Below are positions 5,066 through 31,890 of a stretch of 31,964 nucleotides of DNA, piece by piece (the first letter of the stretch is position 1; each line of letters begins with the position of its first letter). The stretch covers positions 1 through 31,964 of IMG/VR virus record IMGVR_UViG_3300037842_001054. The stretch is one strand, 5' to 3'. The position numbers and the translations under genes were made by a program. Below the pieces are notes generated by a model. The model was not told the origin of the DNA, searched no databases, and saw nothing but the letters and a program-made list of their open reading frames with translations. This DNA comes from a virus.

Positions 5066-5097
5066 TTTGGATACTTAATAGTATTTTCGTATATTAC
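5066..5097 (+). promoter_or_regulatory. Cassette promoter P1
   Basis: TTTGG at 5066-5070, TTCG at 5086-5089 and TATATTAC at 5090-5097: the same 24-base register as the other cassette promoters. It reads into the Fe-S nuclease gene. It lacks the downstream hairpin seen at five sister sites. Confidence 0.75.
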
Positions 5098-20503: not shown

Positions 20504-20902
20504 ATGGATAAAGAAAGGATACGATCTATAATAAATAAAACTTACCCAAAAATAGAAAAATATTATGGTAATTCAAAATACCATAATTGTACTCCTTATA
20601 TTGAACTTCACCACAACATTTATATAAGAATAACAGGTGATGATTATGACCAAGATATTCTATCAGAAACAGAATGTAACCCTGATGCTGAATATGATAA
20701 GGATGATAATACTATTGTAATTTATTGGCCTAAAATGATTGATAAAGAAACAATTATTAGGTCTTTAATACATGAATACCAACATTATTTACAATCACCC
20801 TCATGGATGAAACGATATTATAATATAGGATATGATTATAATACCCACCCCTATGAAGTGCTAGCAAAAGAAGAAGAAGAAAATTGGAAGATATTTGTGT
20901 AA
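20504..20902 (+). CDS. Small zinc metallopeptidase-like protein (HEYQH)
   Basis: 132 residues from ATG 20504; the longer open frame from 20459 runs through the promoter and is not used. IIRSLIHEYQHYLQS contains HExxH (H90, E91, H94). HPYEVLAKEEEEN supplies a candidate third ligand E118, the arrangement of IrrE/SprT-like gluzincins. It could cut a host repressor or a phage assembly protein; the target is unknown. Monocistronic between a terminator and promoter P5. Confidence 0.8.
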   Translation: MDKERIRSIINKTYPKIEKYYGNSKYHNCTPYIELHHNIYIRITGDDYDQDILSETECNPDAEYDKDDNTIVIYWPKMIDKETIIRSLIHEYQHYLQSPSWMKRYYNIGYDYNTHPYEVLAKEEEENWKIFV

Positions 20903-20905
20903 AAA

Positions 20906-20946
20906 TTTGGAGAAGCAAAAAATCGTTCGTATATTTACGGGGTAAA
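20906..20946 (+). promoter_or_regulatory. Cassette promoter P5 with dyad
   Basis: TTTGG 20906-20910 in TTTGGAGAAGCA, TTCG, TATATTTAC 20930-20938. Inverted repeat TTTAC-GGG-GTAAA at 20934-20946. Drives the small-gene run starting at 20992. Confidence 0.88.
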
Positions 20947-20949
20947 TGA

Positions 20950-20960
20950 GGCATGAAGCC
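20950..20960 (+). promoter_or_regulatory. Leader hairpin of P5
   Basis: GGC-ATGAA-GCC, three bases after the dyad. The third pair is C-G where sister leaders have G-C, a compensated swap, but the loop is five bases and not GNRA. The leader continues to AAAGGTTATG. Confidence 0.6.
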
Positions 20961-22911: not shown

Positions 22912-23139
22912 ATGATATTGGATTATATTAAATATGTAAATGATAGAGCTTACATTGTTAAACGTGAGACTCCTATTCATACCTTTGAGCAAAAAGGTGA
23001 AAATAGATTAAATATGAGACTGCTAGAAGCATACCGCGATTACCTCGGATGCGATCATGTCTTAAGAACCCCAACACACTTTCTAATGTGTGAAACCATT
23101 CCCGAAGCGGAAGTAATTGAAGAAAATGTCGAAAGTTGA
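22912..23139 (+). CDS. Hypothetical protein, 75 aa
   Basis: Soluble protein with RLNMRLLEAYRDYLGCDHVLRTPTHFLMCETI. Together with the next gene it is clearly richer in G+C, with codons such as CGC, CTC, CCC and GCG that are rare around it. No motif recognised. The preceding ~50 bases hold no cassette promoter. Confidence 0.68.
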   Translation: MILDYIKYVNDRAYIVKRETPIHTFEQKGENRLNMRLLEAYRDYLGCDHVLRTPTHFLMCETIPEAEVIEENVES

Positions 23140-23332
23140 TTATCGGGATTGGATGACGGAGGATCCCTTCCACCCCTGCCTTTGCGGTGCTGAAGAATTT
23201 AAATTAAATTGGGAGACTGACATCTACACATGCATAGCGTGTGGTGAGCCTTTGATAGCCCCAAAAGAACCCCAAAAAAAGAAAAAGAGGCTTCTGAAGA
23301 AGCGCCCACGTCTTGAGGAAGACTGGGAGTAA
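23126..23332 (+). CDS. Zinc-ribbon protein with basic tail
   Basis: 68 residues from ATG 23126, overlapping the previous gene by 14 bases. HPCLCGAEEF and YTCIACGEP form a C-x-C...C-x2-C ribbon, followed by the Lys/Arg stretch KKKKRLLKKRPR. The finger plus basic tail suggests nucleic-acid binding. Base composition differs from neighbours. Confidence 0.68.
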   Translation: MSKVDYRDWMTEDPFHPCLCGAEEFKLNWETDIYTCIACGEPLIAPKEPQKKKKRLLKKRPRLEEDWE

Positions 23333-24529: not shown

Positions 24530-24570
24530 TTTGGAGAAGCAGGAAAGTGTTCGTATATTTACGACGTAAA
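24530..24570 (+). promoter_or_regulatory. Cassette promoter P6 with dyad
   Basis: TTTGG 24530-24534 in TTTGGAGAAGCA, TTCG, TATATTTAC 24554-24562. Dyad TTTAC-GAC-GTAAA at 24558-24570. Confidence 0.9.
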
Positions 24571-24572
24571 TC

Positions 24573-24584
24573 GGGTGCAAGCCC
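24573..24584 (+). promoter_or_regulatory. GNRA leader hairpin of P6
   Basis: GGGT-GCAA-GCCC: four-pair stem (last pair U-G) with a GCAA tetraloop, two bases after the dyad. Start codon follows in ACAGTTATG. Confidence 0.72.
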
Positions 24585-24596
24585 AATAAAACAGTT

Positions 24597-25088
24597 ATGA
24601 ATAAAAAAATATTATACTTGCATGGATTAGAAAGTCCACAGGGTGGTGAAAAGGTTGATTTCTTAGCAACCAAATCATTTGTTCATGCTCCTGAATTAGA
24701 TTATACACGAAGTGATATATTTCCGTTTTTAATTAGCACAGTTGAGGAATTTAAACCTGATGTAATTATTGGATCTTCAATGGGTGGATATTCAGCATTT
24801 GTTTTAGGTGCGCTTTATAAAATTCCAGTTGTTGCTTTCAATCCTGCTTTACATTCTAGACTAATTGAGCCTAATTTCCCTGAATTTGTAAATGCCCACA
24901 TTCCTGATGATCTTCATGTTGTAATTGGTGAGAAAGACACCGTTATTAGTGGTAAACGAACGTTAGAGTGGCTTAAAGATCATGTTAGAGATAGGTATGT
25001 GAGGTATGAGGTACATCATGTTAAAACAATGGGGCATAGAGTGCCACTTGATGTATTTTCCGATATGTATAATAAAACAATTAAATAA
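24597..25088 (+). CDS. YqiA/UPF0227-like alpha/beta-hydrolase esterase
   Basis: 163 residues, compact like E. coli YqiA. ILYLHGLESPQGGEKVDFL is the oxyanion-side start. The nucleophile elbow GSSMGGYSAF places Ser at 61; D114 (GEKDTVI) and H147 (MGHRVPLDVF) complete the triad. It would hydrolyse small esters or thioesters, perhaps removing acetyl groups from glycans. First gene after P6. Confidence 0.87.
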   Translation: MNKKILYLHGLESPQGGEKVDFLATKSFVHAPELDYTRSDIFPFLISTVEEFKPDVIIGSSMGGYSAFVLGALYKIPVVAFNPALHSRLIEPNFPEFVNAHIPDDLHVVIGEKDTVISGKRTLEWLKDHVRDRYVRYEVHHVKTMGHRVPLDVFSDMYNKTIK

Positions 25089-25089
25089 G

Positions 25090-25434
25090 ATGAAAGAATT
25101 AAATAATTTTAGAGAATTCCTCGCAGCAAAGGAGTTGAATAAAACTCAACTAAATGAAAGTGCTCCTGGATATGATACTAGAAAATTTGGTGGTGCTTTA
25201 CCAACATTAGAAAGTGTTAAGGCAGCTTATGAAGCTAAAGGAGATAAAGAAGAAGTTAAAGAAGGCATTTGGAATATTGGTAATGCAGATGATATTAGTA
25301 AATTTATTGAAACACTAATGGTAATGAAAGATGATTACTATGCAGTAGTAGGAAGTGATACTGTAATGGATGGTTTAGATACGGCTATTAAAGGAGCTGA
25401 GGAATTATTATATATAAAAACTCAGGGGGAGTAA
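25090..25434 (+). CDS. Hypothetical protein, 114 aa
   Basis: Starts at ATG 25090, one base after the esterase stop; a longer frame from 25006 would overlap that gene. N-terminal FREFLAAKELNKTQLNES resembles the short leader found on several T4-like prohead-associated proteins, though this is weak. The rest is helical and acidic. Its stop overlaps the next ATG (TAATG). Confidence 0.72.
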   Translation: MKELNNFREFLAAKELNKTQLNESAPGYDTRKFGGALPTLESVKAAYEAKGDKEEVKEGIWNIGNADDISKFIETLMVMKDDYYAVVGSDTVMDGLDTAIKGAEELLYIKTQGE

Positions 25435-25622
25435 TGCATAAAGTTTTCATTCGACATACTTACATCTACCAATGTGGTAATAATAAATGTAAGGGTGAGT
25501 GGAAAATAAATGAAGCAGTAGATATAGAAAAATTAAGATGCCCCCACTGTGGTGAACATGATACAGTTGATTATGTTATGGAGGATCAAAGAGAAAAATA
25601 TATTAGAAAATTTACAGGATGA
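25434..25622 (+). CDS. Zinc-ribbon protein, 62 aa
   Basis: CGNNKCKGEW and CPHCGEHD form a C-x4-C...C-x2-C ribbon. The fold is that of small rubredoxin-like or topoisomerase-type ribbons used for nucleic-acid or protein contact. Flanked by TAATG and ATGA overlaps. Confidence 0.72.
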   Translation: MHKVFIRHTYIYQCGNNKCKGEWKINEAVDIEKLRCPHCGEHDTVDYVMEDQREKYIRKFTG

Positions 25623-26170
25623 GTTTTGATTTAACAAAATATTTTAAAAAACAATACCTCCTAGAAGGTGATTGGGATATTTTATCTACCTCAGAAGTTG
25701 GGGAATTAGAAGATGATATTATTGAATTAATTAAATCAGCATATGCTTACATTGGAGGTCATAGCAATTACAAAAACACTAGTGATGTGGGTAAAGAAGC
25801 TTCTAGAGGTGCTGAATATGAAGTAATTGATTTAGATGATGATGGTGAAATGGATGCTGTTAATGTAGCTAAATCCAAACCTGTAGGAACTAAATTTGTA
25901 GCCACAGGCCATGATGGTTCTAGAGAAGCTAAAAGAGCTGTTATTACACATAAAATAGATAGATTAAAACAACCAGGATTTTATGTTGAAGTATCAGGAA
26001 AAATAAAAGATATCTTACTTAAAGCAGGTGTACCCCAGGTAACTGATAAAGCTACAATTGAAAAAGCATTGGCTGGTAAAGATATTACTATGAATGATGA
26101 TGGTTCATATACAAGAGGTATTGCTGGTGTAGAGCATGAAAAAATAATGCTAGGCACTCCGTTAGTATAA
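25619..26170 (+). CDS. Conserved phage-type protein, possible acetyltransferase-like
   Basis: 183 residues. AYAYIGGHSNYKN, DLDDDGEMDAVNVAKSKPVGTKFVATGHDGSREAKRAVI, and a C-terminal GIAGVEHEKIMLGTPL block. I recall similar proteins with TGHDGS...HEKIM in other large phages, sometimes annotated as acetyltransferases, but no GNAT acetyl-CoA loop is clear here. Function uncertain. The N-terminus YFKKQYLLEGDWD looks like a flexible leader. Confidence 0.7.
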   Translation: MSFDLTKYFKKQYLLEGDWDILSTSEVGELEDDIIELIKSAYAYIGGHSNYKNTSDVGKEASRGAEYEVIDLDDDGEMDAVNVAKSKPVGTKFVATGHDGSREAKRAVITHKIDRLKQPGFYVEVSGKIKDILLKAGVPQVTDKATIEKALAGKDITMNDDGSYTRGIAGVEHEKIMLGTPLV

Positions 26171-26185
26171 AAACCAACAATTAAG

Positions 26186-26221
26186 CTTGGGGATCCAACA
26201 ACTATTTCGTATGTTTGTTGG
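26186..26221 (+). promoter_or_regulatory. Variant promoter P7 with inverted repeat
   Basis: CTTGG 26186-26190, TTCG 26206-26209, TATGTTTG 26210-26217, a perfect TAnnTTTG. CCAACAA (26195-26201; another copy 26174-26180) faces TTGTTGG (26215-26221), spanning the -7 element. No GNRA hairpin. Confidence 0.8.
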
Positions 26222-26247
26222 TATATTATCAAAAAATTATTTAAATT

Positions 26248-26751
26248 ATGAAAAAAATAGTAGTAATATTATTAGTCACGCTTGGACTACAAACACAAGC
26301 ACAAATTAGTTGGTGTGATTCACTATCATACACAACCTTACCTCAGCAAACCTTAACTGTAATTGGAAATTCATCATTATCACCTAATATGGTAGATTCT
26401 ATAGAGTGGATGTGGTCAGCGTGTAATACAACATTATGTTATGCAGCTTATGGTAACCCAGCAACATTTGCAAGTATATTAACAACAGATACAGTTAAAT
26501 TATGTTATGACGCTTACATATATTCTATGGGAGCAACTTATGTATGTACTAATTGTGATTCATTAGTATATAACGGAAATTCTTATTCATGGGTATTATT
26601 TAATACGGGCAATCCAGCTGGCATAGATGAATTAGTAATTGATAGGTTCAATGACAATAAAATTTATGATATGTTTGGCAGAGAATTACTAGAAGCGCCT
26701 ATTGGGAAAATGTATATTCAAAATAGAAAAAAGTACATTAAATTTAATTGA
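26248..26751 (+). CDS. Secreted protein with type IX secretion sorting tail
   Basis: 167 residues. The N-terminus MKKIVVILLVTLGLQTQAQ is a classic Sec signal peptide with cleavage after TQA. The mature part is Ser/Thr-rich with several cysteines (C23, C59, C64, C86, C100, C103). The C-terminus KIYDMFGRELLEAPIGKMYIQNRKKYIKF (138-166) fits the T9SS type-A sorting domain pattern: YDxxGRE, short spacer, G-x-YI, basic end. It predicts export to the periplasm and then to the cell surface or medium by the host T9SS. Monocistronic under its own promoter variant. Function of the mature domain unknown. Confidence 0.85.
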   Translation: MKKIVVILLVTLGLQTQAQISWCDSLSYTTLPQQTLTVIGNSSLSPNMVDSIEWMWSACNTTLCYAAYGNPATFASILTTDTVKLCYDAYIYSMGATYVCTNCDSLVYNGNSYSWVLFNTGNPAGIDELVIDRFNDNKIYDMFGRELLEAPIGKMYIQNRKKYIKFN

Positions 26752-26768
26752 AAACTTCCACGAAGGAA

Positions 26769-26809
26769 TTTGGAAAACCGTAATCTTATTCGTATATTTA
26801 TGGTATAAA
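26769..26809 (+). promoter_or_regulatory. Cassette promoter P8 with dyad
   Basis: TTTGG 26769-26773, TTCG, TATATTTAT 26793-26801. Dyad TTTAT-GGT-ATAAA at 26797-26809; both arms change together relative to TTTAC/GTAAA. Confidence 0.9.
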
Positions 26810-26811
26810 TG

Positions 26812-26823
26812 GGGTGAGAGCCC
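26812..26823 (+). promoter_or_regulatory. GNRA leader hairpin of P8
   Basis: GGGT-GAGA-GCCC: same stem as P6 with loop GAGA, still GNRA. Two bases after the dyad; leader continues to AAAAGTTATG at 26839. Confidence 0.72.
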
Positions 26824-26838
26824 AAAAAAATAAAAGTT

Positions 26839-26874
26839 ATGAGTAAAATAAACATAATATTATGGGAAGAATAA
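26839..26874 (+). other. Possible 11-codon upstream ORF ahead of the GH16 gene
   Basis: ATG 26839 sits exactly in the AAAAGTTATG start context of the cassette, but its frame stops after 11 codons (stop 26872-26874). The real GH16 ATG at 26862 is in another frame and overlaps it. It may be a leader peptide for coupled or attenuated translation, or a chance ORF. Confidence 0.4.
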
Positions 26875-27632
26875 GAAATATATGGGAAAAATGGGCTTTC
26901 AAATTTAAAAAAATGCCCACTTGGGAAGAAGCCATTAAATTCACCCCAGATGGTGATTATACTAAAATAGATGCTTCAAATATTACATTAGGTAATATGA
27001 ATTGGAAAGCAGGGTATACTAAAAACTTCGACCCTGATGGGGAAGATCCTATGTTTAGACCTTCACGTCCCTGGGATAGTACATTATCTTCACCTGATAA
27101 TATTAAAGTTGAAGATGGTTTGATAAAATTAACACAGCCTGCAGGAGAGGGTCAAAAAGATGCGTGGATGGAGTCTAATTTCAAAATTAAATATGGGACT
27201 ATTAGAGCTCTAATAAAATTACCTAAAGTTGATGGAGCTTGGTCAGCTTTTTGGTTATTTGGTACTAATGGTATGCCCGAAATGGATATATTAGAACATT
27301 GTGGTAGTTGGAAGAATGAAGTAGCAGTTACTCACCATTGGGGATATGATTATAATGGTGAAAGAGGTAAGAAATCAACACTCCATAATGGGAGGAAGAA
27401 GAAGAAATTTAAACCTACGGATGAATATTATTTGTATGAAGTTGAATTATCTCCTTATTATATTAAATATAAAATTAATGGCGTAGTTGTAAGAAAATTA
27501 AAAAATCACCTATCTAGTGGTGAAAACACCATAATATTCGATGTTACTACGGGATTTTATTGTAATTCATCAGAAGTTGTGGAAGATGCTACCATGCTTG
27601 TGAAATTCTTGGAGATATATAAAATACACTAG
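26862..27632 (+). CDS. GH16-family glycoside hydrolase
   Basis: 256 residues. The catalytic strand MPEMDILEHCG gives E140-x-D142-x2-E145, the GH16 ExDxxE nucleophile/acid pair. It is preceded by GTIRALIKLPKVDGAWSAFWLFG and followed by HHWGYDYNG. Family members cut beta-1,3/1,4-glucans, agar, porphyran or carrageenan. No signal peptide, so it acts inside the cell, in the virion, or after lysis as a depolymerase. The basic N-terminus (MGRIRNIWEKWAFKFKK) is unusual. Specificity cannot be read from sequence. Confidence 0.9.
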   Translation: MGRIRNIWEKWAFKFKKMPTWEEAIKFTPDGDYTKIDASNITLGNMNWKAGYTKNFDPDGEDPMFRPSRPWDSTLSSPDNIKVEDGLIKLTQPAGEGQKDAWMESNFKIKYGTIRALIKLPKVDGAWSAFWLFGTNGMPEMDILEHCGSWKNEVAVTHHWGYDYNGERGKKSTLHNGRKKKKFKPTDEYYLYEVELSPYYIKYKINGVVVRKLKNHLSSGENTIIFDVTTGFYCNSSEVVEDATMLVKFLEIYKIH

Positions 27633-27634
27633 TA

Positions 27635-27751
27635 ATGAATAATAGAAAAGCCCAAGAAATATTAAAGGGAATGCCAAAAAATAAAATATCTTTAAAGATT
27701 CATGCGAGGGGATTTGGCTTAGCCAGATCTCTTTCGTATATTTACGGGTAA
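27635..27751 (+). CDS. Short ORF overlapping promoter P9
   Basis: 38 codons from ATG 27635, two bases after the GH16 stop. A basic peptide (RKAQEILKGMPKNK then KIHARGFGLARS). Its second half is the promoter P9 sequence itself, so much of it is constrained as DNA. May be translated, may be incidental. Confidence 0.35.
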   Translation: MNNRKAQEILKGMPKNKISLKIHARGFGLARSLSYIYG

Positions 27752-27752
27752 A
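27713..27752 (+). promoter_or_regulatory. Cassette promoter P9 with dyad
   Basis: TTTGG 27713-27717, TTCG, TATATTTAC 27737-27745. Dyad TTTAC-GG-GTAAA at 27741-27752. Reads into the RadA-like gene. Confidence 0.9.
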
Positions 27753-27754
27753 AC

Positions 27755-27766
27755 GGGTGCAAGCCC
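27755..27766 (+). promoter_or_regulatory. GNRA leader hairpin of P9
   Basis: GGGT-GCAA-GCCC, two bases after the dyad; then an AT-rich leader to AAAGGTTATG. Confidence 0.72.
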
Positions 27767-27793
27767 AAGTATTAATTAAATTAAATAAAGGTT

Positions 27794-28594
27794 ATGCAGA
27801 ATAAAGTAAAAAGAGGTCGACCAAGTAAGCAAGTTGTTGAAACAACTACTATGAAATTGAATGTTAGAACAGTAAAAATGAACGACATGGAGTTCAACAA
27901 GAAATTGTTTGAACCTATGAAAACAAATACCAAAGTTGATGCTTTCTTCAGTATGGAAGGTGGTGTTATGCCTGGTACAAACGTTGTAGTTACTGGTGAT
28001 CCTGGTGTTGGTAAAACAACAGTGTTGCTAGATGTTCTAGGCGATCTCCAGAAAAATGGTAAAAAATGTTTGTTCATTTCAGGTGAAATGAATGCAATTG
28101 ACATGGTTGGTTATGTTAAGCGTTTTCCAAAATTTGGAGATTTAGATATCTTGTTTATGGGTGATTATGCTGACGTTAATCCTGATGTTGTTCTTAGAAC
28201 AGCGCTTAAAGAGGGTTATGATTGTGTTTTGATTGATTCACTTGCTGAAATTTCAGATAATTATGTTGATTATTTTGGAGGTACTGGTAAGTCAAATACC
28301 AATCGTATTTTGCAGTTGCTTGATGAGCATAACCAAGCAAATAATGATGCTAAACTTAATAGCACGTTTTTGATAATTCAACAAGTTACCAAAGGTGGTA
28401 CATTTGTTGGATCAAATAAGATTAAGCATATGACAACAGCAATGGGTCATTTAAAATTTGATGGTGATGGTAGTCGTTTCTTCCATCTCAGTAAGAACCG
28501 TCGAGGTGGTAGTGGAAATAAATTGTTTTTCAATTTAAATAAAAAGAATAAAGTTAACTGGTTGTTTGATGAGCCAATTAATCAAATAGCATAA
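27794..28594 (+). CDS. RadA/RecA-like ATPase
   Basis: 266 residues. Walker A GDPGVGKT (68-75), SGE (96-98), Walker B VLIDS (145-149) and a RadA-type K-N-R motif at 234-236 (KNRRGGSG in place of KNRFG). It lacks the zinc finger and Lon-like C-domain of cellular RadA. The N-terminus holds RGRP (7-10), an AT-hook-like core. Likely a branch-migration or recombination ATPase, or a helicase-like factor. Codon choice (more TTG and GTT) differs from the glycan genes. Its stop overlaps the next ATG. Confidence 0.85.
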   Translation: MQNKVKRGRPSKQVVETTTMKLNVRTVKMNDMEFNKKLFEPMKTNTKVDAFFSMEGGVMPGTNVVVTGDPGVGKTTVLLDVLGDLQKNGKKCLFISGEMNAIDMVGYVKRFPKFGDLDILFMGDYADVNPDVVLRTALKEGYDCVLIDSLAEISDNYVDYFGGTGKSNTNRILQLLDEHNQANNDAKLNSTFLIIQQVTKGGTFVGSNKIKHMTTAMGHLKFDGDGSRFFHLSKNRRGGSGNKLFFNLNKKNKVNWLFDEPINQIA

Positions 28595-28773
28595 TGAGTT
28601 ATTTAATAATATATATAATAGTAGGGTCAGTTCTCACATCACTGTGGGACTGGCTTACGTGGAAAACAGAAAATGAATTTACTAATAAAGAAAGAGCCAT
28701 TTGTATTTTGATTTGGCCTCTAGCTTTAGGGTTGTATTTATGGAATTTATATAATAATCTTAAAAAGAAATAA
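28594..28773 (+). CDS. Small membrane protein, 59 aa
   Basis: ATG 28594 in a TAATG overlap with the RadA-like gene. Hydrophobic segments at about 3-20 (YLIIYIIVGSVLTSLWDW) and 36-52 (AICILIWPLALGLYLW) separated by a charged loop. No recognised family; placement in a replication operon is unexpected. Confidence 0.68.
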   Translation: MSYLIIYIIVGSVLTSLWDWLTWKTENEFTNKERAICILIWPLALGLYLWNLYNNLKKK

Positions 28774-28775
28774 TT

Positions 28776-29012
28776 ATGGCAAAAGATAAAAGATATGTAG
28801 TACAAATGGAAATGTATGTTTATGCTGAAAATGACTATATGGCTAGAAAAAGAAGTCATGAAATGAGGCAAGAATTAGATAGTAAATACCCTAATGCTCA
28901 AACAGCTGTTACAGAATTAGGTGAACAACCATTTGCTAGTTTAAGTTATAGAAAGTTTAAGGATCATTCAATGCCTTTAAGCAAATCAAAAGACGACGAA
29001 TTACCATTTTAG
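28776..29012 (+). CDS. Small protein with SSB-like C-terminal tip
   Basis: 78 residues. A basic/amphipathic body (KDKRYVVQMEMYVYAENDYMARKRSHEM) is followed by SLSYRKFKDHSMPLSK and the terminal KDDELPF. Acidic residues then L/I-P-F at the very end is the SSB tip that docks onto many replication and repair proteins. The protein has no OB fold, so it may borrow or compete for those contacts. It sits two genes after the RadA-like ATPase. Confidence 0.75.
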   Translation: MAKDKRYVVQMEMYVYAENDYMARKRSHEMRQELDSKYPNAQTAVTELGEQPFASLSYRKFKDHSMPLSKSKDDELPF

Positions 29013-29013
29013 T

Positions 29014-30132
29014 ATGTATTTAGGAGAAAGAATAAATTTTTCAATTAATACATCATTTTATAAAAGAAGTGATTGTATAGATCATATTTATGAAGGTTTA
29101 AAAGCTCAAACTTACAAATATTGGGAGTGGGTTGTAACTGATGATTTTTCTGAAGATAAAAATGCTGAAAAGAGTTTGAAGGAAATTGCTAGAAATGATC
29201 ATAGGGTAGTTTATTATACTCAATCTAGGAAGAAAGAATTATTTTGGAATCCTAATTATGGTGCTAGTGGCAATGTTATTTTCCAAATGGATAGTGATGA
29301 TACCATGTATCCTAATATACTTGAAATTTATGCTAAACATTTTATGGAGGATCCTTCATTGATGGGGATTTGCTGTGGGTGTTATATGGAGGGTGATGAT
29401 AAGACATATAGGGGGTATGGTTTTAATTTTCTGAGTGGTGAGAATTGTTTAAATATGACTTGGGGTAGAGCTTGGAGAAATATAATACCACACTTTGACT
29501 ATGAGGGTAAATTACAACACTTTCAAAATGATACTAATATTATAAGACATATTGAATCTAGAGGAAAAGTATTATCTCTTCCCAGAGAATTATACATTTA
29601 TAATTGGAGTGAAGAATGTATTTCTAAAGCACAATATTTTCCTTCTGAAGTAGAGGATGAAAGAAGTCTAATTGAAGGTAAATTTGGTATTAATAAAGTA
29701 GATGATAAATGTACTTTTGATTTAAAATATATTCCAATTGAGAATCTAGCTTCGGCTTTTTTAGGATCATGTTTTAATAAATCAGTAGACAGAAAGAAAA
29801 TATTACTCATTAAATCAGATATAAAACCTTATGAAAAACAATTATTAAATGAATTATTTTATGATCATACTATAGTTTACAATGGAGATAATTCAGATAG
29901 CTATGATGAGATTATTGTTTATATGGAGGATGAAAAAACTAGGGATTATTTATATAACAATATTTTAGAATTACAGAAAAATAATAAGGAAATATACTTG
30001 AGATGGTGGTGTACGATGGAAGATAAAGATAAGTGGGAGAATGAAGGTAAATGGGATTTCTTCGGAAGGTATTGTTATAATACCTTAGAGTCGAATAAGG
30101 GGGATGCCTGTGTTTGTGCTATAGTGTTATAA
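29014..30132 (+). CDS. GT2-like glycosyltransferase, 372 aa
   Basis: INFSINTSFYKRSDCIDHIYEGLKAQTY and WVVTDDFSED are GT2 N-terminal features. IFQMDSDDTMYP carries the DxD motif. The C-terminal ~150 residues (ILLIKSDIKPYEKQLLNELFYDHTIVYNG...) form a second alpha/beta domain not typical of GT2, possibly acceptor recognition. It lies far from the main glycan island, in a replication operon. Confidence 0.82.
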   Translation: MYLGERINFSINTSFYKRSDCIDHIYEGLKAQTYKYWEWVVTDDFSEDKNAEKSLKEIARNDHRVVYYTQSRKKELFWNPNYGASGNVIFQMDSDDTMYPNILEIYAKHFMEDPSLMGICCGCYMEGDDKTYRGYGFNFLSGENCLNMTWGRAWRNIIPHFDYEGKLQHFQNDTNIIRHIESRGKVLSLPRELYIYNWSEECISKAQYFPSEVEDERSLIEGKFGINKVDDKCTFDLKYIPIENLASAFLGSCFNKSVDRKKILLIKSDIKPYEKQLLNELFYDHTIVYNGDNSDSYDEIIVYMEDEKTRDYLYNNILELQKNNKEIYLRWWCTMEDKDKWENEGKWDFFGRYCYNTLESNKGDACVCAIVL

Positions 30133-30133
30133 A

Positions 30134-30298
30134 ATGAAGGAGAATAATAAAAAATTAAAAAAAGTACAATTAACTCAACAGGAAATTTGGGATAGTTTAA
30201 GGGTACCTCCTCCTTATAAAAGTAAAAAAGATTATAAACGTAAACCTAAACATAAAAAAGGAGATTCTGATTATTTTTATCCTGATAATCAACTTTAA
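30134..30298 (+). CDS. Small basic Pro-rich protein, 54 aa
   Basis: ATG one base after the glycosyltransferase stop. QQEIWDSLRVPPPYKSKKDYKRKPKHKKGD is basic with a PPPY stretch. Probably disordered and perhaps nucleic-acid binding. Ends 17 bases before promoter P10. Confidence 0.62.
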   Translation: MKENNKKLKKVQLTQQEIWDSLRVPPPYKSKKDYKRKPKHKKGDSDYFYPDNQL

Positions 30299-30315
30299 AG
30301 ACTTATGCAAGAAAG

Positions 30316-30356
30316 CGTGGAGATCGCATGAAGGGTTCGTATATTTATGGTATAAA
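30316..30356 (+). promoter_or_regulatory. Cassette promoter P10 with dyad
   Basis: CGTGG at 30316-30320 stands in for TTTGG; then TTCG and TATATTTAT 30340-30348 in the exact 24-base register. Dyad TTTAT-GGT-ATAAA at 30344-30356. Reads into 30389 and the ligase. Confidence 0.82.
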
Positions 30357-30358
30357 TC

Positions 30359-30370
30359 GGGTGCGAGCCC
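30359..30370 (+). promoter_or_regulatory. GNRA leader hairpin of P10
   Basis: GGGT-GCGA-GCCC, a third GNRA loop variant on the same stem, two bases after the dyad; leader ends AAAGGTTATG. Confidence 0.72.
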
Positions 30371-30388: not shown

Positions 30389-30613
30389 ATGATTAGAAAA
30401 AAAGAAGATTTAAAACCGTCAACTCCAATGATAATTGATTTGACTGGCCCAGATGGTAATGCATTTGCATTATTAGGTTTTGCAAAAAACTTTGCAAACC
30501 AATTGCAATTAGATTTTAGTAAGATAAGTGCTGAAATGACTTCAGGTGATTATGAGAATCTAATTGAAGTATTTGATAAGTATTTTGGTTCATTTGTAAT
30601 ATTAGAAAGATAA
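30389..30613 (+). CDS. Conserved small phage protein of the IDLTGPDGNAFALLG type
   Basis: 74 residues. PMIIDLTGPDGNAFALLGFAKNFANQL and EMTSGDYENLIEVFDKYFG form a pattern I recognise from small uncharacterised proteins of many phages. No enzymatic motif. Its stop overlaps the ligase ATG (TAATG), tying the two together. Confidence 0.8.
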   Translation: MIRKKEDLKPSTPMIIDLTGPDGNAFALLGFAKNFANQLQLDFSKISAEMTSGDYENLIEVFDKYFGSFVILER

Positions 30614-31890
30614 TGGTTATGAATGATTTAAAAGAATTTATAGATGACATGAGGGCTACAAGCAGTAGCACTGAAAAAGTAGCAATTATAAAACGTAGTT
30701 CTACATTTATACATGATGTGCTTGAAGCTACATATAATCCCTACAAACAATATTATGTTACTAGTAAAACGTGTAAGAAAAATAGTGATCTAGTAGCATT
30801 AGGTAGTCATACTTTGATGCAAACCTTAAATTATTTAAGTTCAAGGGAAGTTACAGGACATGATGCTATTAAATTAGTTAATAGGTTTGCTACTAAAAAT
30901 ATTGGGTGGGATTTAATTTACAAAATTATTGATAAAGATTTAGGCATTAGAGCTGGAGCTAAAGTAATTAATAAAGCAGTTCCTGGTCTTATCCCTGAAT
31001 TTTCAGTTGCATTAGCTAAAGAATATGAGGCAGGTAAATGTGATTGGAAAGATGGATGGTATGCTTCCAGAAAATTAGATGGTGTTAGATGTATAGCTCG
31101 AGTTGATAGTGAAGGTAATTGTAAGTTATTTAGTAGAACTGGTAAAGAATTTACTACACTTAATACAGTTAAAGAAGCCATTGAAGACACTGGTGTTATT
31201 AATACTACATTTGATGGTGAGATTTGTTTAGTTGATGAAAATGGCAATGAAGATTTTCAAGGTGTAATGAAGCAACTAAGACGTAAAGACCACCAAATTG
31301 AAGATCCAGCTTATATAATGTTTGATATGATATCAAATGATGACTTTGACAATTGTAAAGGTACAAGGTTATTAGAAAGACGTTTGTTTGAACTTAAATC
31401 ATTTGTTGAGACTTTAGATTTAAACCGCTATCATCAAGTACTGCGTTTTGCAGAGCAATTTTTAATTGAAGATGATGAAGATCTTGAATGGTGGAATAAT
31501 AAATCAAGTAATAACGGTTGGGAAGGTGTAATGTTGAGGAAGAATATTGGATATGAAGGTAAGCGTACTAAAAACTTGGTTAAAGTAAAGAAATTTCATG
31601 ATGCTGAGTATAAAGTGATGGCAGTTGATTATGATATGCATGAGGTGGTTGTAGATGGTAGATCAGAAACTGTTAAGATGTTAGCTCAAGTATGGATTGA
31701 ACATAAAGGTTATAAAGTGAAAGTAGGTAGTGGATTTACTCATGAGCAGAGACTTAAGCATGTGGGGGAGAATATTGTAGGTAAATTAATTACTGTTCAA
31801 TACTTTGAAGAAACTAAAAATGATAAAGGAGGAATTTCTTTAAGATTTCCTACCGTAAAACACATTTATGATGATACGAGAAATATGTAA
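30613..31890 (+). CDS. 30: ATP-dependent DNA ligase (T4 gp30-like)
   Basis: 425 residues (T4 gp30: 487). Adenylation lysine K154 in KLDGVR (motif I), FDGEICL, motif III AYIMFDMI (233-240), motif IV EGVMLRK (304-310), motif V VKVKKF (323-328), then an OB-fold C-terminal domain. The N-terminal ~145 residues match the helical DNA-binding part of the T4-type enzyme. It seals nicks in replication and repair. ATG 30613 overlaps the upstream stop; ATG 30619 is an alternative. Confidence 0.93.
   Translation: MVMNDLKEFIDDMRATSSSTEKVAIIKRSSTFIHDVLEATYNPYKQYYVTSKTCKKNSDLVALGSHTLMQTLNYLSSREVTGHDAIKLVNRFATKNIGWDLIYKIIDKDLGIRAGAKVINKAVPGLIPEFSVALAKEYEAGKCDWKDGWYASRKLDGVRCIARVDSEGNCKLFSRTGKEFTTLNTVKEAIEDTGVINTTFDGEICLVDENGNEDFQGVMKQLRRKDHQIEDPAYIMFDMISNDDFDNCKGTRLLERRLFELKSFVETLDLNRYHQVLRFAEQFLIEDDEDLEWWNNKSSNNGWEGVMLRKNIGYEGKRTKNLVKVKKFHDAEYKVMAVDYDMHEVVVDGRSETVKMLAQVWIEHKGYKVKVGSGFTHEQRLKHVGENIVGKLITVQYFEETKNDKGGISLRFPTVKHIYDDTRNM

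Follow-up and report, generated by a model that had tools for sequence, protein, structure and literature searches.

A predicted GNRA-type leader hairpin reused behind one promoter class in uncultured, probably Bacteroidota-infecting phages

The stretch of DNA analyzed here (the window) comprises 31,964 bases of an uncultured virus from IMG/VR, in which short hairpins with GNRA-type loops lie in the predicted 5' leaders behind five promoters. Proteins encoded by the window include an exonuclease, an ATP-dependent DNA ligase, a RecA/DnaB-type ATPase, glycosyltransferases, and a GH16 enzyme, and the promoter type indicates that the host is probably a member of the Bacteroidota. Over most of the region they have in common, a 64-kb record is about 94% identical to the window, and a second record, of 164 kb (G002), runs collinear with it at about 74-86% identity; among cultured phages, the leader DNA had no match and the window proteins had distant matches only. 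A preliminary description of this DNA had reported GGGT-GNRA-GCCC in four leaders, with the loops GCAA, GAGA, and GCGA, and all four were found behind promoters exactly where it had placed them: GGGTGNRAGCCC has four matches in the window, all on the plus strand, and none in 100 dinucleotide shuffles. A fifth leader had been described as carrying a G-C to C-G swap in the stem. This hairpin is real, but it differs by more than the swap, since its 3-bp stem and five-base ATGAA loop assign it to a second structural class. The five hairpins, with their positions in the predicted transcripts, are as follows:

20950-20960, plus strand: hairpin GGC-ATGAA-GCC, pentaloop class, +9 to +19; -4.0 kcal/mol when folded alone; covariance model match of 26.4 bits (training sequence)
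24573-24584, plus strand: hairpin GGGT-GCAA-GCCC, +8 to +19; precedes a UPF0227 esterase-like gene (24597-25088)
26812-26823, plus strand: hairpin GGGT-GAGA-GCCC, +8 to +19; precedes a GH16-like gene (26862-27632)
27755-27766, plus strand: hairpin GGGT-GCAA-GCCC, +7/+8 to +18/+19; precedes the RecA/DnaB-type ATPase gene (27794-28594)
30359-30370, plus strand: hairpin GGGT-GCGA-GCCC, +8 to +19; precedes an unknown gene (30389-30613) and the DNA ligase gene (30613-31890)

All five are predicted to fold alone (-4 to -5.9 kcal/mol). These energies are unremarkable in comparison with shuffled sequences (z -0.7 to -1.8), so the case depends on comparison between relatives. About 290 loci were collected by scanning uncultured viral contigs for the pattern and by searching with proteins, and 286 distinct leaders were used. 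A GC-bearing hairpin occupied the promoter slot in about 105 of the 286, compared with 44.8±5.1 after dinucleotide shuffling and 8 in a control stretch 21-45 bases downstream; in the GC-richer subset, it was present in 105 of 125 leaders (43.7±5.2 expected from shuffles). The stem pairs seen were GGGT/GCCC, GGGT/ACCC, AGGC/GCCT, GGC/GCC, GCG/CGC, GTGC/GCAC, ATGC/GCAT, GTGA/TCAC, and GAGC/GCTC. Permuting the 3' arms among leaders, a procedure that ignores their relatedness, lowered pairing from 7.79 to 5.79±0.30, and when leaders were picked by their loop alone, 68 of 104 were paired, compared with 43.4±3.2 after permutation (maximum of 55 in 5000 permutations). In the tetraloop alignment, the outer pair was G-C in 18 leaders, A-U in 5, and unpaired in 13, while the closing pair was U-G in 22, C-G in 10, and U-A in 4; the third pair of the pentaloop class was G-C in 26, U-A in 5, and G-U in 3. 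Shifting the pairing partner by one to three columns reduced pairing from 91% to at most 56% and from 79% to at most 26%, although the rows of both alignments had been selected as hairpin classes, which biases these percentages upward and makes the arm permutations the fairer measure.

Two findings count against a purely inherited signal: the hairpin precedes at least 38 gene families, and its forms are diverse even within single gene families. Leaders of the RecA/DnaB-type ATPase gene carry the tetraloop forms GGGT-GCAA-GCCC, GGGT-GCGA-GCCC, GGT-GAGA-GCC, GGT-GAGA-ACC, GCG-GGAA-CGC, and AGGC-GCGA-GCCT as well as the pentaloop form GGC-GCGAA-GCC; this variety goes beyond point mutation of one leader and suggests that leaders are exchanged between genes or phages. 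The five leaders of the window were used to build a covariance model, as the preliminary description had advised; searched against six phage records (630 kb), it gave 20 matches at E<=1, five of them the training sequences; all 20 were promoter leaders on the coding strand, located at predicted transcript starts, so that leaders of relatives were recovered. A general outer helix pairing the 5' end (TAAATG with CATTTA) was rejected, as it occurs in one leader lineage only and real leaders score no higher than permuted ones.

Four-base loops were GNRA in 47 of 51 cases (6% in shuffles) and five-base loops were RNRAA in 37 of 50 (8% in shuffles). Among boxB RNAs, pentaloops are known that adopt a GNRA-like fold by flipping out one base (PMC12550061), and, as far as sequence can tell, loops of both lengths would share a GNRA-type fold; those starting with A (ATGAA, ACGAA, and AAGAA) may keep it by using an A-A where the G-A pair would be. 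With stems that covary and loops that are GNRA or RNRAA far above chance, the earlier proposal of selection on RNA structure is borne out, and the unpaired stem changes and unconstrained loops that had been named as evidence to the contrary were not what the homologous leaders displayed.

The hairpins follow Bacteroidota-type promoters with a TTTG-like -33 element and TATATTTA as the -7 element. According to transcription start site data from Flavobacterium johnsoniae, the -7 element spans -12 to -5 (PMC6847099; also PMC9723704), which sets +1 at the fifth base after TATATTTA. An independent check on +1 came from leaderless genes in these phages, whose ATG lies exactly four bases after the -7 element (12 cases). 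The features of Sigma-ABfr promoters, i.e. TTTG near -33 and TAnnTTT at -12 to -5, were found throughout, except that CGTGG replaces TTTGG at promoter 5. The promoter elements and the DNA dyads that overlap them are listed below:

20930-20937, plus strand: promoter 1, -7 element TATATTTA; -33 element TTTGG at 20906; predicted +1 at 20942
20933-20947: promoter 1, DNA dyad ATTTAC-GGG-GTAAAT, covering the -7 element and +1
24554-24561, plus strand: promoter 2, -7 element; -33 element at 24530; predicted +1 at 24566
24557-24571: promoter 2, dyad ATTTAC-GAC-GTAAAT
26793-26800, plus strand: promoter 3, -7 element; -33 element at 26769; predicted +1 at 26805
26796-26810: promoter 3, dyad ATTTAT-GGT-ATAAAT
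27737-27744, plus strand: promoter 4, -7 element; -33 element at 27713; predicted +1 at 27748 or 27749
27741-27752: promoter 4, dyad TTTAC-GG-GTAAA
30340-30347, plus strand: promoter 5, -7 element; -33-like CGTGG at 30316; predicted +1 at 30352
30343-30357: promoter 5, dyad ATTTAT-GGT-ATAAAT

On this placement, the RNA is predicted to begin with GUAAAU or AUAAAU, with the stem next and the hairpin at about +8 to about +19, close to the roughly 10 bases into the transcript proposed before. The spacing of two bases between dyad and hairpin, also proposed, needs correction: it is one base or two, according to where the dyad is taken to end. At another locus (L145, minus strand, 7989), a tRNA gene begins exactly at the hairpin slot of leaders with the same type of promoter, and transcription must hence begin upstream of that point. 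The core dyad, TTTAC-N3-GTAAA, covers the -7 element and +1 at all five window promoters. Over some 220 sites, the bases that flank it covary (C..G in 180, T..A in 17, C..A in 17, and T..G in 5), and in G014 it takes the form TTCAC..GTTGAA. Judged by these patterns, it looks like an operator, and the dyad associated with the hairpin probably sets the time at which these genes are switched on. At a leaderless gene at 20504, the ATG lies on the predicted +1 and itself forms the right half of the dyad (ATTCAT-ACC-ATGGAT; relatives have ATGAAT). An inverted repeat, GAGGGGATTTGGCTTAGCCAGATCTC, spans the -33 region at 27706-27734; the spacer motif TTTGGAGAAGC is found again at other promoters. Further window promoters, at 5066, 15985, 18850, 20468, and 26186, have no such hairpin.

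Across the relatives, the 3' end of the stem lies at +18 to +20 of the predicted transcript in 107 of 117 cases, whereas anything between 9 and 38 bases may separate it from the start codon. A perfect core dyad is present at 92 of 123 hairpin promoters compared with 113 of 407 without the hairpin, and the spacer motif TGGAGAA at 50 of 123 compared with 39 of 407; the hairpins mark one promoter class. G002 has nearly all of its hairpin promoters in a single block of 14 kb (53-67 kb) that consists mostly of small genes, with an intrinsic terminator ahead of it; within the hairpin-led blocks, both in the window and in G002, a search for intrinsic terminators found none. Of two exact-pattern scans over 84,980 prokaryote genomes, the first found nothing and the second, looser one found six scattered matches, none in a phage promoter context; a host origin of the hairpin was rejected on these results. 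An upstream open reading frame starting from AAATGAGG was likewise rejected, since many leaders have AAATAAGG or AAATCGGG there. Taken together, these comparisons make us highly confident that the hairpin is a real RNA element with a GNRA-type loop, restricted to phages, placed in the early transcribed region of one promoter class, and put before many gene families.

In other phages, the same slot is occupied by hairpins of unrelated sequence. A second leader type, GTTATTG-AGTTCAGGC-CAATAAC, stands at the same promoters in L051 (minus strand, 4272), L034 (7866), L289 (57), and L295 (minus strand, 6345), with apparent compensating changes (GTTAATG/CATTAAC). Extended hairpins in L098 (minus strand, 4215) and L198 (near 480), with about 8 pairs or 2+5 around a mismatch, keep RNRAA loops in more distant phages.

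Rfam gave no match at the gathering threshold over the whole window, and only unrelated chance matches at E<=5. Both 5' leader hairpins and phage RNA elements with a GNRA fold are known in kind. The boxB elements of lambdoid phages (lambda, P22, and phi21), which act with the N peptide, are likewise short phage leader hairpins with a GNRA-like fold and purine-rich four- or five-base loops (PMC12550061), whereas the present hairpins have stems of 3-4 bp and freely varying sequence, lie at +8 to +19 of many promoters, and come with no N-like protein or boxA that we could see. The LoaP leader hairpin of Bacillus velezensis (dfn/mln) is also small, located in the 5' leader, and needed for regulation (PMC12691694); however, it is of the UNCG type, and its partners, a NusG paralogue and a terminator located downstream, were not found here. 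The stabilizing stem-loops of ompA, papA, and Bacillus aprE likewise lie near the 5' end of the mRNA and ahead of the translation start region (PMC3997798, PMC7509114); the present hairpins are set apart by about seven bases left unpaired at the 5' end, a very small stem, a loop under constraint, and reuse before dozens of phage genes. The promoters share -33/-7 architecture and spacing to +1 with Bacteroidota Sigma-ABfr promoters (TTTG / TAnnTTTG; PMC6847099, PMC9723704) but have three additions: TTCG ahead of the -7 element, a dyad across +1, and the leader hairpin. Going by the open-licence literature, which is partial, neither the hairpin family nor its promoter context or phage group seems to have been described, in agreement with the preliminary description.

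A position fixed by +1 rather than by the start codon points to an action on transcription or on the mRNA 5' end, and makes translational control, one of the roles initially considered, less likely. The best overall explanation, which we put forward at somewhat less than even confidence, is that of a hairpin element of a co-regulated promoter class that protects the 5' end from decay and so supports expression. The hairpin would form a compact obstacle near the mRNA 5' end, slow 5'-end-dependent decay, and thereby prolong the life of transcripts from these promoters, and since it would lie upstream of an unstructured, A-rich translation start region, initiation would not be blocked. Its position falls outside the region in which structure hinders initiation (PMC6847099), and 5' stem-loops and near-5' obstacles stabilize mRNAs in several bacteria (PMC3997798, PMC7509114). 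Decay protection as a mechanism is a tentative choice; we favor it over a boxB-like site because (i) unrelated hairpins occupy the same slot, as if shape counted more than sequence, (ii) no reader protein was found, and (iii) 5' obstacles prolong mRNA life elsewhere. Several observations pull the other way. U-G closes 27 of 48 GNRA loops, and UNCG loops number only 2 compared with 55 GNRA loops, although stability alone would make C-G closing pairs and UNCG loops common. The stems are weak (-4 to -6 kcal/mol), and about seven unpaired bases precede the predicted hairpin, whereas 5'-terminal protection in E. coli is reportedly best with few unpaired 5' bases (work of Bouvet and Belasco and of Emory et al., to which PMC3997798 refers). 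In addition, a close relative, G012 (158 kb; RecA/DnaB-type ATPase 81% identical), has eleven matching promoters and no such hairpin, nor any covariance model match, so the hairpin is not essential to this type of phage. The constrained loop, the retained U-G pair, the rarity of UNCG, and the unpaired 5' bases suit a recognized tag better, which makes a boxB-like site a close second.

Such a tag would be read by a phage or host RNA-binding protein that recognizes the GNRA fold, in analogy to boxB/N (lambda/P22) or the LoaP hairpin, and that would load onto RNA polymerase or the mRNA and control a phage regulon through antitermination, elongation, or translation. We regard this as possible though rather unlikely. 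It would account for a loop that stays constant while stems change and for four- and five-base loops with one shared fold, as in boxB RNAs (PMC12550061), and it agrees with the fixed linear GUAAAU ahead of the hairpin, the association with perfect-dyad promoters, and the requirement of LoaP for a small leader hairpin (PMC12691694). However, the stem sequence can change completely, and the lack of intrinsic terminators in the hairpin-led blocks leaves little visible to read through, with Rho-dependent termination still a possibility. Moreover, no NusG-like protein scored above the cut-off and no RRM protein was found in 13 phage records (a weak NusG match in G006 has two stops and is not credible), and a host UpxY-type protein may serve as the NusG-family partner, the negative result covering the phage records only. 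When gene presence and absence were compared with the hairpin-free G012, no RNA-binding protein clearly tracked with the hairpin; the sole genes following the pattern, a holin-like gene and a 108-aa unknown gene, were not convincing as RNA-binding proteins. A small, very basic protein of 54 aa (30134-30298), encoded directly upstream of hairpin promoter 5 and present in 38 loci, is a possible candidate for a nucleic-acid binder only. A Zn-ribbon-like protein with a basic tail (23117-23332) occurs in several hairpin-bearing relatives and not in G012. Of the two remaining explanations, a role in initiation or early elongation, in which the hairpin would fold as RNA polymerase leaves and favor escape, pausing, or release, agrees with the position fixed to +1 and the link to dyad and spacer motif, but it is improbable given that 113 promoters with the same dyad have no hairpin, that 94 non-hairpin leaders start with GTAAAT, and that G012 lacks hairpins entirely. 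Least probable by far is an imperfect palindrome bound as DNA beside the core dyad: the hairpin does adjoin a dyad that covaries as DNA, but G-U pairs are common (22 of 36 closing pairs), GNRA is confined to the sense strand, as expected of an element acting at the RNA level, and the loop length alternates between 4 and 5 with a register shift, three features that a DNA operator would not be expected to have.

A broader version of the tag, in which the hairpin and the fixed GUAAAU 5' end would mark dozens of transcription units for one dedicated reader factor that would handle all of these mRNAs, or the polymerases making them, in the same way, strikes us as doubtful. If true, it would amount to a boxB-like system that relies on neither N nor NusG and, in the open-licence literature, the first in Bacteroidota phages. 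Regulation in large uncultured Bacteroidota phages is almost unknown, and a reused, covarying leader element defines a promoter class in them. The element is a marker for annotating these genomes and a testable handle on the control of mRNA life or transcription by such phages, whose hosts lack Shine-Dalgarno initiation, and it may serve as a small expression module for Flavobacterium genetics.

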